A stretch of 32,311 bases of DNA from Saprospiraceae bacterium (lineage in GTDB: Bacteria; Bacteroidota; Bacteroidia; Chitinophagales; Saprospiraceae): positions 1-32,311 of the forward strand of contig JAIPBL010000074.1 of assembly GCA_021739645.1 (NCBI GenBank), given 5' to 3'. The notes below the pieces were generated by a model. It had not been told where the DNA came from. It searched no databases and was given only the letters and a program-made list of their open reading frames with translations. The translations under genes and the position numbers were made by a program. Below are positions 15,799-19,641 of the stretch, piece after piece. The stretch's first letter is position 1. Every line of letters starts with the position of its first letter.

Positions 15799-16617
15799 AT
15801 GTCGCAATTAGAAAGTATCATCAACTCGGCATGGGAAGACCGCTCCATGCTCAACGACAAACCTGTGCAAGAGGCCATACGGCACGTCGTTTCTCTGTTG
15901 GACACGGGCAAGCTGCGTGTCGCTGAACCCACTTCCGACGGTGAATGGAAAGTAAACGATTGGGTGAAAAAAGCGGTCATCCTCTATTTTCCCATCCAAA
16001 AAATGGAAACCATCGAGGCACCGCCTTTCGAGTTTCACGATAAAATCCCGCTGAAAAAAGGCTTCGCTGCCCAAGGCGTCCGGGTAGTGCCACATGCCAT
16101 TGCACGGCATGGATGCTTCCTCGAACCGGGGGTTATTTTGATGCCTAGCTACGTGAACATCGGCGCCTACGTCGGCGCTGGGAGCATGGTTGATACATGG
16201 GCAACGGTTGGTTCCTGCGCTCAAATCGGCAAAAACGTACACCTCAGCGGCGGTGTGGGCATTGGCGGTGTGCTGGAACCCCCACAGGCTGCCCCGACCA
16301 TTATCGAAGATGAGTGCTTTATCGGCTCACGTTGCATTGTAGTAGAAGGCGTTAGAATTGAGCGGGAATCGGTACTGGGCGCCAATGTTGTGCTTACGCA
16401 ATCAACGCATATCATTGACGTAACTGGTCCTACACCAGTCACTCATAAAGGTAGGGTTCCCGCTCGTTCGGTGGTCATTCCTGGTACGTATTCCCGGCAG
16501 TTCCCAGCTGGGGATTATGGTGTTTCCTGTGCCCTCATCATCGGCAAGCGCACTGAAAGCACTGATAAAAAAGTGTCACTGAACAGCGCACTGCGAGAGT
16601 ACGGCGTGGCCGTTTGA
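15799..16617 (+). CDS. dapD: 2,3,4,5-tetrahydropyridine-2,6-dicarboxylate N-succinyltransferase
   Basis: A 272-residue DapD of standard length. The N-terminal domain contains LDTGKLRVAEP and WKVNDWVKKAVILYFPI. The C-terminal left-handed beta-helix has hexapeptide repeats (VNIGAYVGAGSMVDTWATVGSCAQIGKNVHLSGGVGIGGVLEP) and the acyl-CoA binding segment APTIIEDECFIGSRCIVVEGV. It adds succinate from succinyl-CoA to tetrahydrodipicolinate in the succinylase route to meso-diaminopimelate and lysine. The start ATG 15799 directly follows the repeat island, so any ribosome binding site lies within the repeat. A strong terminator follows. Confidence 0.97.
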   Translation: MSQLESIINSAWEDRSMLNDKPVQEAIRHVVSLLDTGKLRVAEPTSDGEWKVNDWVKKAVILYFPIQKMETIEAPPFEFHDKIPLKKGFAAQGVRVVPHAIARHGCFLEPGVILMPSYVNIGAYVGAGSMVDTWATVGSCAQIGKNVHLSGGVGIGGVLEPPQAAPTIIEDECFIGSRCIVVEGVRIERESVLGANVVLTQSTHIIDVTGPTPVTHKGRVPARSVVIPGTYSRQFPAGDYGVSCALIIGKRTESTDKKVSLNSALREYGVAV

Positions 16618-16634
16618 CCATTTTCCAAAACAAC

Positions 16635-16669
16635 AAAGCCCCGGTCATGTGCATGGCCGGGGCTTTTTT
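16635..16669 (+). terminator. Intrinsic terminator of dapD
   Basis: AAAGCCCCGGTCATG pairs with CATGGCCGGGGCTTT (one G-T pair) around a 2-base loop, followed by a run of six T residues ending at 16669. This is a classical strong Rho-independent terminator 17 bases after the dapD stop. Confidence 0.93.
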
Positions 16670-16741
16670 GGTTGGACTTATCGCTGCAACTATCTTTCAG
16701 CAGCAAGGTCCATATTTTCAAAGGTGAACTAAGAAAGGAAA

Positions 16742-16800
16742 GAAAACTACCCCTACCGCCCGAAGGTTTCAGGGTAGTCCCACACACTATTAGAACACCC
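16742..16800. repeat. Structured repeat copy A (hairpin + conserved 22-base block)
   Basis: Arms ACTACCC (16746-16752) and GGGTAGT (16772-16778) enclose 19 bases. They are followed by the block at 16779-16800 that begins CCCACACACTAT and ends AGAACACCC. Copies B and C have the same architecture. Read on the minus strand, the hairpin is followed by TTTTC. This copy differs from the other two by one base in the block (T instead of G at 16791). Confidence 0.85.
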
Positions 16801-16818
16801 ACTATTTAGACTCATAAA

Positions 16819-16888
16819 GGTTTCAGGTTTGGGGCTTAAAGTTTCAGGGGAGTCCCTGCGTGAAACCTGAAACGGAAAACCTGAAACC
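16819..16888. repeat. Iterated-word island (GGTTTCAGG and complement)
   Basis: GGTTTCAGGTT (16819-16829) and AACCTGAAACC (16878-16888) pair perfectly, and inside them GTTTCAGG (16841-16848) pairs with CCTGAAAC (16866-16873). It is another degenerate-word palindrome, placed between structured repeat copies A and B. The loop of copy A contains the same word. Confidence 0.85.
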
Positions 16889-16890
16889 AA

Positions 16891-16952
16891 GAAAAAACCA
16901 GCCCTACGTCCCGAAGGGTTTCGGGCTGGTCCCACACACTATGAGAACACCC
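16891..16952. repeat. Structured repeat copy B (hairpin + conserved 22-base block)
   Basis: Arms ACCAGCCC (16897-16904) and GGGCTGGT (16923-16930) enclose 18 bases with an inner CCC/GGG. The block at 16931-16952 is identical to that of copy C. On the minus strand the hairpin is followed by six T residues, as in an intrinsic terminator. On the plus strand the block is followed by AATATCTTTTTT. Confidence 0.88.
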
Positions 16953-16982
16953 AATATCTTTTTTGGCCTACCCCAAAAGGGG

Positions 16983-17043
16983 CGAGTCATGCGTTTTGAG
17001 TTTCGAGTTGGGAGGCCTCGGTTAACTTGGACTACATGACTCG
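16983..17043. repeat. Inverted repeat upstream (minus sense) of copy B
   Basis: CGAGTCATG (16983-16991) and CATGACTCG (17035-17043) pair perfectly over a 43-base loop. On the minus strand it precedes copy B, with a CCCC/GGGG hairpin in between (around 16972-16983). It may be part of a larger folded RNA. Confidence 0.6.
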
Positions 17044-17145
17044 TTAATGCCATTTATTTCAATCAAAATCTTAGTTTTCAAGTTGATTGCGAGTTTCTTT
17101 AAACCCGCCAAAAGCATTCAAGGACTCAATCACTTGAAAGATGGT

Positions 17146-17204
17146 GAAAAAACTGCCCCTACCACACAAGGTAGCGGGGCAGCCCACACACTATGAGAAC
17201 ACCC
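17146..17204. repeat. Structured repeat copy C (hairpin + conserved 22-base block)
   Basis: Arms CTGCCCC (17153-17159) and GGGGCAG (17176-17182) with an inner pairing TACC/GGTA (17160-17163, 17170-17173). The block at 17183-17204 is identical to copy B. On the minus strand the hairpin ends in six T residues. Copies B and C also share a TATCTTTT sequence just beyond the block. Confidence 0.88.
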
Positions 17205-17667
17205 AATTATATCTTTTGGTAAAATTTTGTTGTGTAGTAGAAAAGAAATTTGCCCTTTGTAGGTAGGAGAAAATTCGTTTTTAAGCCTTCTCATCAGTTT
17301 TTGTTTTTTCGCCTTGCGATGCCTTTTTGCTTCCAAGTTTGTTCATCGTTAAAGACAACCTATAGATGTACAAACCCCAAAAATTTCACACACCGAAAGC
17401 ACAACTCTCGAAAAAAATATTTCTACAGCAATTATAAAAGGTTGATTCTCAGTTGGTAAGTTCTCGTTTGTGTGGTCAGCCTAGTTTGTTGAGGCTTGAG
17501 GAGCAGCGTCATCGTAGGCTTTCCATTCCAATTTTCAAAAATAATCTACTTTTGTTGACGCCGTGATATTCCTAAAAACACTGCCAAAAGAACGTATTGT
17601 TGGGCAATGAAGTTGCCTTACGTTTGTTTTGAGTTGAAAAATCTTTCAAGAACAAACAATTATTCTA
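17205..17667. other. dnaG upstream region
   Basis: About 460 A/T-rich bases before dnaG. Short minus-strand frames rich in Lys and Arg (around 17271-17345) could encode a small basic peptide, but base composition alone explains them. The dnaG promoter is at the right end of this stretch. No RNA gene could be recognised with confidence. Confidence 0.4.
17597..17626 (+). promoter_or_regulatory. Promoter of dnaG (TTG - 19 bp - TACGTTTG)
   Basis: TTG at 17597-17599 and TACGTTTG at 17619-17626 are separated by 19 bases, which fits the Bacteroidota -33/-7 pattern. The -7 box ends 41 bases before the dnaG start. It is the best full promoter match in the window. Confidence 0.6.
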
Positions 17668-19641
17668 TTGATTCCACAGAAAACAGTGCAAGAAATCCTC
17701 GAAACCGCTAAAATCGAGGAAGTCATTCAGGACTATGTCAACCTGAGGAGACGGGGCGTGAACATGATTGGCCTATGCCCATTTCACAACGAAAAAACCC
17801 CGTCATTCACAGTCTCTCCAGCCAAAAATATCTTCAAATGCTTCGGCTGTGGCAAGGGGGGCGACCCTGCCAAGTTCGTGATGGAGCACGAACACCTCAC
17901 CTACCCCGATGCACTGCGCTACCTCGCCCGCAAGTACCGCATCGAGGTGGAAGAAGTGAAGCTGACACCAGAGGCGGTCGCTCAACAGCAGGCCGAGGAG
18001 AGTCTTTACATCCTCAATGATTACGCCCGCCAATTTTACCAAGACCAGCTTTTTGAAACAGACATGGGCAAAAGCGTGGGCTTGAGCTACTTCAAGGGGC
18101 GAGGCTTTCGGGAGGAGACCATCCGCAAGTTCGGACTGGGCTATGCGCCCAACGAACAAGATGCCTTTGTAAAAAAAGCAACCCAGACGGGCTACAAGCT
18201 CGAATTCTTGAAAAAACTGGGCCTTGCTTCGCAATACGACCGTGATTTTTTCCGCAACCGGGTGATGTTCACCATCCACAACCTGAGTGGGAAGCCCATC
18301 GCCTTCGCCGGGCGAATCATGGAAAAAGACGTCAAGGCGCCCAAGTACATCAACTCGCCGGAGACGGAGATTTACGTTAAAAACAAGAACCTCTACGGCG
18401 CTTTTTTTGCCAAAACCGCCATCCGAAAGGCCGATGAGTGCATCCTCGTGGAGGGTTATACCGACGTGATTTCGCTGCACCAGGCTGGCATCGAGAACGT
18501 GGTGGCAAGTTCCGGCACCTCGCTCACCGATGGTCAGATTGCACTCATCAAACGTTTTACCCCCAACATCAAAATCCTTTACGATGGCGATGCAGCGGGT
18601 GTAAAAGCAGCACTGCGCGGGCTTGACATGGTGCTGGAGAAGGATATGAACGTGCGGGTGGTGCTCATCCCCGACGGCGATGACCCCGACAGCTACCTGC
18701 AAAAAGTAGGCGCCACGGCCTTCCAGGAGTTCATTGACAAACAGTCCCAGGATTTTATCTTGTTCAAAACCAACCTGTTGCTCGCCGAGACGAAGGGTGA
18801 CCCCGTGAAAAAGGCAGGCCTGGTCCGGGACATCGTGGATAGCATCAGCCGGGTACCCGACCCCTTCAAGCGCTCATTTTATGTGAAGGAATGTGCAAGG
18901 GTCATGGAGTTGGAGGAGGCCGTGCTGGTTTCGGAAGCGAACAAGGCGGTGCATCAAATCCTTCAAAAACGGGACTTAGACAAGCGTAAGAAGCAGGAGG
19001 TAAAAATCAACATCGTGCCGGAAGATGGTGAGTTTCCGACGGAGGTGCCGCCCGACGACCAGGGTGAACACTCTTTCGTTGCGCCCAAGCCACGAACCGC
19101 TGGCCACGAATTCCAGGAGCGGGACATCGCAAGGATATTGGTGGAAGCCGGAGAAAAAATTTACGACGAAGAAGAAAACATGACGGTGGCCGAATTTGTG
19201 CTCGGCAATATTGAGGACGTACTGGAAGATTTCGACAACCCAGAATATTTGCGCATCGCTAAGGAGGCCATGCAGCTCGTATTGGGCAAATCGCCCGTGA
19301 CCACGCAGTATTTCATCGGCCACAACGACCAGACAATCAGTGAATTAGCAGTGGATTTACTGCACTCACCCTGGGAGTACAGCCCCGGCTGGGAATTGCA
19401 CGAAATGTATTTGAGGTCGCAAAAAAAGCCCGAAGAGAATTTCAACAAAGACAGCCTGAGCGCCCTGCTCCAGTTCAAGCTCCGCAAAGTGATTCGGCTT
19501 TGCGAAAAAAATCAGTTGCAAATGAAAGAGGTGGCCTCTGACGATTCCACCCAACTATTGCGCTTAATGAAAGTGCAGATGAAACTGAACGAAATGCGCA
19601 ATGAGTTGATGAAACAGTTGGGAATGGTGGTTTTGAAATAG
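17668..19641 (+). CDS. dnaG: DNA primase DnaG
   Basis: A 657-residue primase. The start is TTG 17668-17670: it gives the family's usual N-terminus MIPQKTVQEILETAKIEEVI, and no ATG comes before the zinc-binding domain. The CHC2 zinc finger uses Cys37, His40, Cys58 and Cys61 (CPFH...CFGC). The TOPRIM domain has Glu262 in EGYTDV and the metal-binding DGDAAG (Asp306, Asp308). A helical C-terminal region that would bind DnaB makes up the rest. It synthesises RNA primers at the replication fork. Unlike the rpsU-dnaG-rpoD operon of Proteobacteria, it stands alone here, with a 1-kb unusual region in front. Its stop codon TAG leads into a GGGATGAGG repeat. Confidence 0.97.
   Translation: MIPQKTVQEILETAKIEEVIQDYVNLRRRGVNMIGLCPFHNEKTPSFTVSPAKNIFKCFGCGKGGDPAKFVMEHEHLTYPDALRYLARKYRIEVEEVKLTPEAVAQQQAEESLYILNDYARQFYQDQLFETDMGKSVGLSYFKGRGFREETIRKFGLGYAPNEQDAFVKKATQTGYKLEFLKKLGLASQYDRDFFRNRVMFTIHNLSGKPIAFAGRIMEKDVKAPKYINSPETEIYVKNKNLYGAFFAKTAIRKADECILVEGYTDVISLHQAGIENVVASSGTSLTDGQIALIKRFTPNIKILYDGDAAGVKAALRGLDMVLEKDMNVRVVLIPDGDDPDSYLQKVGATAFQEFIDKQSQDFILFKTNLLLAETKGDPVKKAGLVRDIVDSISRVPDPFKRSFYVKECARVMELEEAVLVSEANKAVHQILQKRDLDKRKKQEVKINIVPEDGEFPTEVPPDDQGEHSFVAPKPRTAGHEFQERDIARILVEAGEKIYDEEENMTVAEFVLGNIEDVLEDFDNPEYLRIAKEAMQLVLGKSPVTTQYFIGHNDQTISELAVDLLHSPWEYSPGWELHEMYLRSQKKPEENFNKDSLSALLQFKLRKVIRLCEKNQLQMKEVASDDSTQLLRLMKVQMKLNEMRNELMKQLGMVVLK

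Follow-up and report, generated by a model that had tools for sequence, protein, structure and literature searches.

Three tandem units lie between dapD and dnaG in a Saprospiraceae genome, each of which reads on the minus strand as TGGGTGTTCT(N)ATAGTGTGTG followed by an intrinsic terminator. They were found in a stretch of 32,311 nucleotides that was analysed as a whole (the window). Sequence comparison suggests that these are small regulatory RNAs of a family not described before, and we consider it reasonably probable that the units form a multicopy family of trans-acting sRNAs of Saprospiraceae and their kin, of the seed-plus-terminator type and FopS-like in working; relatedness to FopS is not claimed, and the likeness that we draw by analogy lies in the way of working. 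New here are the divergent synteny with dnaG, the bipartite block, promoter-like motifs ahead of leading units only, and viral copies. Saprospiraceae are common in activated sludge and in the sea, and for Bacteroidota other than gut genera, little is generally known of regulatory RNAs.

Architecture of the units

The sequence-only reading had described three hairpin-plus-block units between dapD and dnaG, and we located all of their parts, i.e. arms, loops, A runs and block. The span given for them, 16742-17204, is correct; it does not include the likely array promoter, which is on the minus strand near 17361-17390. The block had been called nearly invariant, which stands, as one base varies among the window units, and 22 bases long, whereas we count 23. 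On the minus strand, the window blocks read TGGGTGTTCT(C/A)ATAGTGTGTGGG, then hairpin, then T run; on the plus strand, the 23 bases are CCCACACACTATNAGAACACCCA, the single variable base being T in unit 1 and G in units 2 and 3.

Unit 3, which is proximal to dnaG and would be transcribed first, has its block TGGGTGTTCTCATAGTGTGTGGG at 17183-17205 (minus strand) and its intrinsic terminator at 17147-17182 (minus strand; arms 17176-17182 and 17153-17159, loop of 16 bases, T6 at 17152-17147). The block of unit 2 is at 16931-16953 and its terminator at 16892-16930 (both minus strand; arms 16923-16930 and 16897-16904, loop of 18 bases, T6), while the block of unit 1, with the variant base (TTCTAATAG), is at 16779-16801 and its terminator at 16743-16778 (both minus strand; arms 16772-16778 and 16746-16752, loop of 19 bases, T4). 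The A runs on the plus strand are at 16743-16746 (unit 1), 16892-16897 (unit 2) and 17147-17152 (unit 3). The covariance model R1, which was built from 20 diverse units, matches unit 3 at 17147-17208 (80.4 bits, E 1.4e-19), unit 2 at 16892-16956 (68.4 bits) and unit 1 at 16741-16804 (60.7 bits). On the far side of the array, the convergent neighbour is dapD (15799-16617, plus strand; Pfam THDPS_N_2 and Hexapep), for which an inverted-repeat search gave a terminator-like inverted repeat at 16628-16673; the divergent neighbour is dnaG, encoding DNA primase (17668-19641, plus strand; Pfam Zn_ribbon_DnaG, DNAG_N and Toprim).

The spacer at 16819-16888 contains imperfect palindromes, the arms of which are tandem variants of one short word that differs from place to place (e.g. 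GGTTTCAGGTTT with AACCTGAAACC; GAGTTTTGAGTT). Like palindromes are present between or before units in L020, L021, L023, L025 and L042, and similar ones occur elsewhere in the source genome ahead of some genes (L274, before the gene at 464-2894).

Conservation of block and terminator

The block is not confined to the window but occurs in a fourth copy in the source genome and in many genomes of the family. In the 6.16-Mb source genome, a search that allowed up to three mismatches gave four block places, all with 0 mismatches, and 0 for the reversed pattern; thus, the block is not a chance occurrence. The 12-base pattern alone, searched with two mismatches in the window, was not significant (3 places versus 1.9 expected; 31 of 100 shuffles equal). 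The fourth copy is on another contig (G000:C28:31662-31684) and is followed by a hairpin and then TTT only.

Among 187 distinct units, each of the 18 fixed positions of the block deviates in at most two units, a constancy that is overstated because most loci had been retrieved by the block itself. Moreover, in 20 further loci from the model search (19 picked among the lower scores and one array, L215), GGTGTTCT and ATAGTGTG are exact in 23 of 29 model matches with 1-3 bases between them. In these loci, variation affects the flanks and the central base, L209 and L199 have insertions at the centre, and single changes within the block halves are present in few loci (L207, L212, L201). Because the halves are kept while flanks and centre vary, the element is, on sequence grounds, bipartite, i.e. 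GGUGUUCU-(1-3 nt)-AUAGUGUG. An A/T-rich stretch of about 10 bases, directly ahead of the block, is common to the units (176 units). Many single-sequence folds contain a weak 4-bp helix within the block, and the conserved element is predicted to be mostly single-stranded. That an element of 17-20 nt is near-constant while the identity of the adjacent DnaG falls to ~39-45% amounts to a strong and testable constraint.

The reading of the units as minus-strand intrinsic terminators with a common leading block extends beyond the hairpins and T runs of the window. A terminator-like hairpin was detected behind the block in 175 of 197 distinct units as compared to 23.2 in shuffled sequence, starting 0-10 nt past the core in 173 of the 175 and having a median of -21 kcal/mol and 14 pairs. 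The remaining 22 units fail the terminator test, with a hairpin still visible by eye in most; nine of them are of the second-locus type described below, with a T run only after a further hairpin. The compensatory stem changes that had been proposed from the window recur in homologous stems, which keep pairing and covary in 20 diverse units on four of five measures. Specifically, two-sided change was observed in six of seven stem pairs (3.0 on average after shuffling; 2 of 500 shuffles reached this) and covariation was scored at 0.328 versus 0.211 shuffled (0 of 500 as high); by contrast, further pair types were not above shuffles (11 versus 10.0; 155 of 500). The structured-RNA reading thereby survives two of the three refutations named with the sequence-only reading, namely that the block is absent elsewhere and that homologous stems lose their pairing. 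Antiterminator pairing of the block with a terminator arm, which was seen in folds of some unit-1-type sequences only and is not general, was dropped.

Distribution across genomes

With up to two mismatches, a 21-base pattern is present in 23 of 60 genomes (reversed control, 0 of 60), i.e. in 14 of 14 genomes of the genus (the source genome included), in 9 of 23 other family members and in 0 of 23 genomes from other families of the order. One match with two mismatches and without a matching hairpin (L048) is probably due to chance; its genome has other copies. R1 matches 73 of 150 family genomes, the family in these counts being Saprospiraceae/Lewinellaceae as judged by named matches, and, in a phylum sample of 395 genomes, only three, which belong to the same family, with no match outside it (stricter filters were used above 40 genomes). 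A scan of named genomes gave at least 115 stretches. Among the 80 matches listed, the titles are Saprospiraceae, Saprospirales, Lewinella, Neolewinella, Lewinellaceae, Flavilitoribacter and Phaeodactylibacter as well as unspecified Bacteroidetes, Bacteroidota, Bacteroidia and Chitinophagales. The exception among these listed matches is a contig of a MAG labelled Robiginitomaculum, an alphaproteobacterium, with an exact block (L124); this contig is probably mis-binned.

In 18 of 18 inspected family genomes without an R1 match, no core with up to four mismatches was detected in the 1000 bases upstream of dnaG (only 221-828 bases in four genomes); therefore, the unit is dispensable in many lineages. 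On a DnaG tree of 79 carriers and 31 non-carriers, in which L199 was scored as a non-carrier though a variant unit is present, the presence of the unit needs 15 changes as compared to 27.2 when shuffled (0 of 500 as low). We read the range of the unit as old origin with repeated loss or transfer.

A recurrent second locus, next to which a homologous gene (486 aa in the source genome) is divergently placed, was found in 11 of 51 compared loci, comprising 44 block loci without a dnaG start, the second locus of the source genome and six dnaG loci. In the window's genus, alignment places the block of the second locus within a longer conserved region. In the source genome (L005:4240-4760, contig C28), an element GGAGCGGTTATAAGTAGTTATTTTCTGT with a terminator is followed by a region with the pairable ends GGCGAGGAAGC and GCTTCCTTGCC, and then by block, hairpin and another terminator; the orthologs are L024, L036, L040 and L042. 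From its sequence, the second locus looks like a further conserved noncoding RNA. An Rfam search with four second-locus stretches gave only a tRNA (L043) and one chance-level match.

Promoter-like motifs

Alignment of 13 orthologs together with motif counts gave a promoter-like motif divergent from dnaG, consisting of TGTGAAATTT at 17390-17381 and CATCTATA at 17368-17361 on the minus strand, from which the array transcript would start near 17350. The 13 aligned orthologs in the window's genus share the TGTGNANTTT-like and TCTTA-like boxes, and several of these genus orthologs have CGTCTTA as second box.

Motifs of three types are present ahead of 47 of the 138 units that lead and of none of the 56 that follow in tandem, a contrast that is partly circular because the motifs were drawn from first units after inspection. 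One of the three motifs was found for 34 of the 107 single units and for 13 of the 31 units that lead an array; 91 of the 138 leading units, including 18 of the 31 array leaders, have no recognised promoter motif. The housekeeping type precedes 11 of 138 first units (shuffled 0.95) and 0 of 56 later units, and its -7 box ends 29-65 nt ahead of the block in 10 of the 11 cases and 7 nt ahead in one. The CGTCT type, ACTTT-N(11-15)-CGTCT, precedes 26 of 138 first units (shuffled 0.45), many of them in Lewinella-like clades, and 0 of 56 later units; it ends 40-76 nt before the block in 22 of the 26 and lies 122-191 nt ahead of it in the remaining four. Finally, the genus type precedes 11 of 138 first units (shuffled 0.0) and 0 of 56 later units, its second box ending 121-156 nt before the block in 11 of 11. 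In a search for a promoter regulon, strict forms of two of the motifs have 0 places in 1.09 Mb (reversed, 0 and 3), but the genus form as used also misses the window's own site, so that these counts carry no weight. In its letters, the CGTCT-type motif resembles ECF-sigma promoters; in Flavobacterium psychrophilum, a CGT-box motif has been ascribed to an ECF factor (PMC9723704).

Proposed mode of action

Three readings had been offered for the units, and that of short RNAs ending at their own terminators is the best supported, because block and terminator occur at many loci, the stems change in a compensatory manner, the leader is variable and there is no coding signal. Tandem attenuators are unlikely in the window, because read-through on the minus strand enters the 3' end of dapD, which is on the other strand, and no convincing gene was seen downstream.

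For trans-acting sRNAs, transcription would start upstream of the dnaG-proximal unit, divergent from dnaG, at a promoter that differs by clade, i.e. of the Bacteroidota housekeeping type in some and of the CGTCT-box type in others. The RNA would comprise, in this order, a variable leader, the mostly single-stranded GGUGUUCU-(1-3 nt)-AUAGUGUG and an intrinsic terminator making the 3' end. Because later tandem units have no recognised promoter, transcription would, we infer, enter them by reading through the terminator before them, and they are perhaps cut free in the A/U-rich stretch ahead of each block. The bipartite element would be the working part. Its most likely role would be to pair with a number of mRNAs close to where their translation begins, and an RRM protein, of which this genome has five, may assist as partner.

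Terminators between promoterless units would be an awkward design unless read-through is substantial. We regard as rather unlikely the fuller scenario of a family-wide, dnaG-tied array in which one promoter serves terminator-separated units, read-through sets the dose, and phages carry the element, in one case at the end of a tail operon, to enter or block the host network. In this scenario, the regulon would be tied to replication through its link to dnaG. Dosage of an sRNA by read-through along a terminator-separated array would, if it operates, be unusual.

Within the trans-acting sRNA reading, we lean by analogy towards pairing with mRNAs rather than protein binding; in Bacteroides, the seeds of FopS (PMC11697453) and MasB (PMC10994844) pair with mRNAs, and MasB does so through the stretch before its terminator (PMC10994844). 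In a weak test, which covered 689 gene starts (1.09 of 6.16 Mb, 18% of the source genome), neither the duplex energies nor the longest complement was above that of shuffled seeds. The complement of the 13-base core with one mismatch gave one extra place in the source genome beyond the four copies, and the reversed control gave four. This extra near-complement (G000:C56:15901-15913, L305) is inside a reading frame, away from the gene start. A site ahead of an 860-aa gene (L271), exact over 9 bases, was rejected as a target, being one of 4 such sites where 4.4 are expected.

Alternatively, the GU-rich bipartite element might bind an RRM-type protein, the RNA being a protein sponge or another protein-binding RNA to which tandem units add sites, much as CsrB-type RNAs titrate a protein. 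The near-constancy over 17-20 nt with a tolerant centre suits two protein contacts, GUGU is present in both block halves, the genome has five RRM matches, the tandem arrays reach five units, and complementary sites were not in excess at the 689 gene starts. However, only one unit is present in 66 of the 88 dnaG-linked loci (7 have two, 11 three, 3 four and 1 five), and intrinsic terminators between units would limit the number of sites per RNA. We hold a protein-binding RNA, which is the main rival reading, to be an unlikely explanation.

Position relative to dnaG

Among 135 loci examined, 133 have a block at the mismatch limit used, and 89 of these include the dnaG start. The blocks are upstream of dnaG in 89 of 89 loci and all divergent from it in 87; the two non-divergent loci, L092 and L206, are apparently a single site represented in two collections. 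With duplicates removed and earlier loci added, there are 88 distinct loci that contain dnaG, and in 87 of these the unit lies upstream of the gene in divergent orientation; in the sole exception, L206, the unit has the same direction as dnaG and is 136 bases upstream. The distance from the unit to the dnaG start is 80 to 3400 bases with a median of 282, and is at most 1000 bases in 85 of the 88 loci. In 44 of the 133 block-bearing loci, no dnaG start is in reach, these being a mix of short contigs and real second loci.

Such a position could also be that of a cis-acting device, in which the dnaG promoter is adjusted by divergent transcription or by the terminators, without any trans function of the RNA. 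The divergent placement in 87 of 88 loci speaks for it, as do the closest cases, with ~80 bases from the dnaG start to the block, so that both promoters share that space. However, a conserved, transcribed block of 17-20 nt is unneeded for such a role, the distance to dnaG ranges up to 3400 bases, the 44 loci have no dnaG start in reach (some being short contigs), and the fourth copy of the source genome and the viral copies sit elsewhere; we find a cis-acting dnaG device distinctly improbable.

Viral copies

An exact 18-base scan of viral contigs gave three stretches (L342, L343 and L344). L342 and L344 are the same phage segment with a row of tail genes, assigned by PHROGs to baseplate, tail and tail-fibre or tail-fibre assembly, and the unit starts 5 nt past the stop codon of the final gene in this row. 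A host-type block and then a hairpin are present at the end of this row (L342:5368-5800, and L344), and this unit is a candidate 3'-UTR-derived phage sRNA. L343 represents a second viral lineage with a DNA methyltransferase gene and two other proteins without a PHROGs match. R1 scored L343 with 54.4 bits and L342 and L344 with 43.0 bits. Because a looser 16-base scan gave nine viral stretches versus eight for the reversed pattern, only viral stretches with a hairpin and a model score were counted. L350 has 30.1 bits and a matching hairpin without a clean T run, and we take its neighbouring genes to be Mu-like; L345-L349 (12.9-25.8 bits) are probably due to chance. None of the eight reversed-pattern viral loci was scored by R1 at E up to 1, and blastn of one 68-base unit against the phage collection gave no match. 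In total, the unit is present in two clear viral lineages and one possible one.

The sequence-only reading had also considered a small dispersed element. This is unlikely as the main reading, as the dnaG-adjacent position is kept across genera, but minority loci and a few viral contigs show that units move. A mobile or phage-spread terminator element without a host role would be in line with units at several unrelated loci and in these two clear and one possible viral lineages; however, the dnaG position is kept while DnaG identity to that of the window drops to ~39-45%, and the block is more strongly constrained than the rest; we give this explanation very little probability. Finally, that a conserved small peptide terminates in the block (frame TGG GTG TTC TCA TAG) is barely conceivable: although an open frame runs by eye into the block in some dnaG-proximal units of the genus, and one frame other than the named one has an upstream median of 13 versus 11 codons shuffled, the named frame has a median of 3 open codons versus 9 shuffled and ATG in 13% versus 20% (195 units), ATG rates are at most 0.01 above shuffled in any frame (195 units), stops are present directly before and inside the frame in the third-unit type and within the frame in unit-1-type sequences, and the coding reading was rejected because the 195 units have no clear coding signal in upstream frames and the frame is not kept open through the block.

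Comparison with known RNAs

The element had not been recognised from its sequence, and likewise no Rfam family reaches its gathering threshold in the window. A search of 16650-17350 against Rfam 15 (cmscan, E up to 10) gave five sub-gathering matches, none of them named FopS, in a copy that may omit the FopS model; similarly, 20 further loci gave five weak matches, all below gathering. BTnc201/MasB (RF04177) matched one window unit with 32.2 bits (E 0.00096) as compared to a gathering score of 105 and, with E up to 0.5 allowed, matched none of 20 other loci; homology to BTnc201/MasB was dropped because of the sub-gathering score and the lack of repetition in these loci. In the open-licence PMC literature, no report was found of a Saprospiraceae or Lewinella sRNA or of a divergent dnaG-linked sRNA in Bacteroidetes. 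An exact northern probe, the covariance model, the viral copies and cultured carriers (Neolewinella, Lewinella and Flavilitoribacter) make function and partner directly testable.

To our knowledge, a one-promoter, terminator-separated array is not typical of Qrr, LhrC and other multicopy sRNA families. Like the units, these families, which belong to other phyla, consist of paralogous copies with shared sequence (PMC11697453). Rfp18 of Flavobacterium psychrophilum is likewise a Bacteroidota sRNA thought to act on mRNAs, but its predicted pairing region is the third stem-loop (PMC9723704). MasB is closer in layout, being ~100 nt long with a GUGUU...GUGUGUG stretch ahead of its terminator; positions 41-50, which by count fall within this GU stretch, belong to the part that pairs with mRNAs (PMC10994844).

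FopS comprises 14 paralogous sRNAs of Bacteroides thetaiotaomicron, which repress SusC-like mRNAs and have the RRM protein RbpB as binding partner (PMC11697453). FopS RNAs are ~65-70 nt long with the seed at the 5' end and a housekeeping promoter directly upstream (PMC11697453), whereas the putative promoter motifs described here mostly end ~29-76 or 121-156 nt before the block; moreover, neither tandem arrays nor a dnaG link were seen in the parts of the FopS description at hand (PMC11697453). The likeness to FopS lies in multicopy paralogous RNAs in Bacteroidota, the sequence of which is also present in phage, in an RRM protein as partner there (PMC11697453) and RRM genes in this genome, and in a conserved element, predicted to be single-stranded, that is followed by a terminator.
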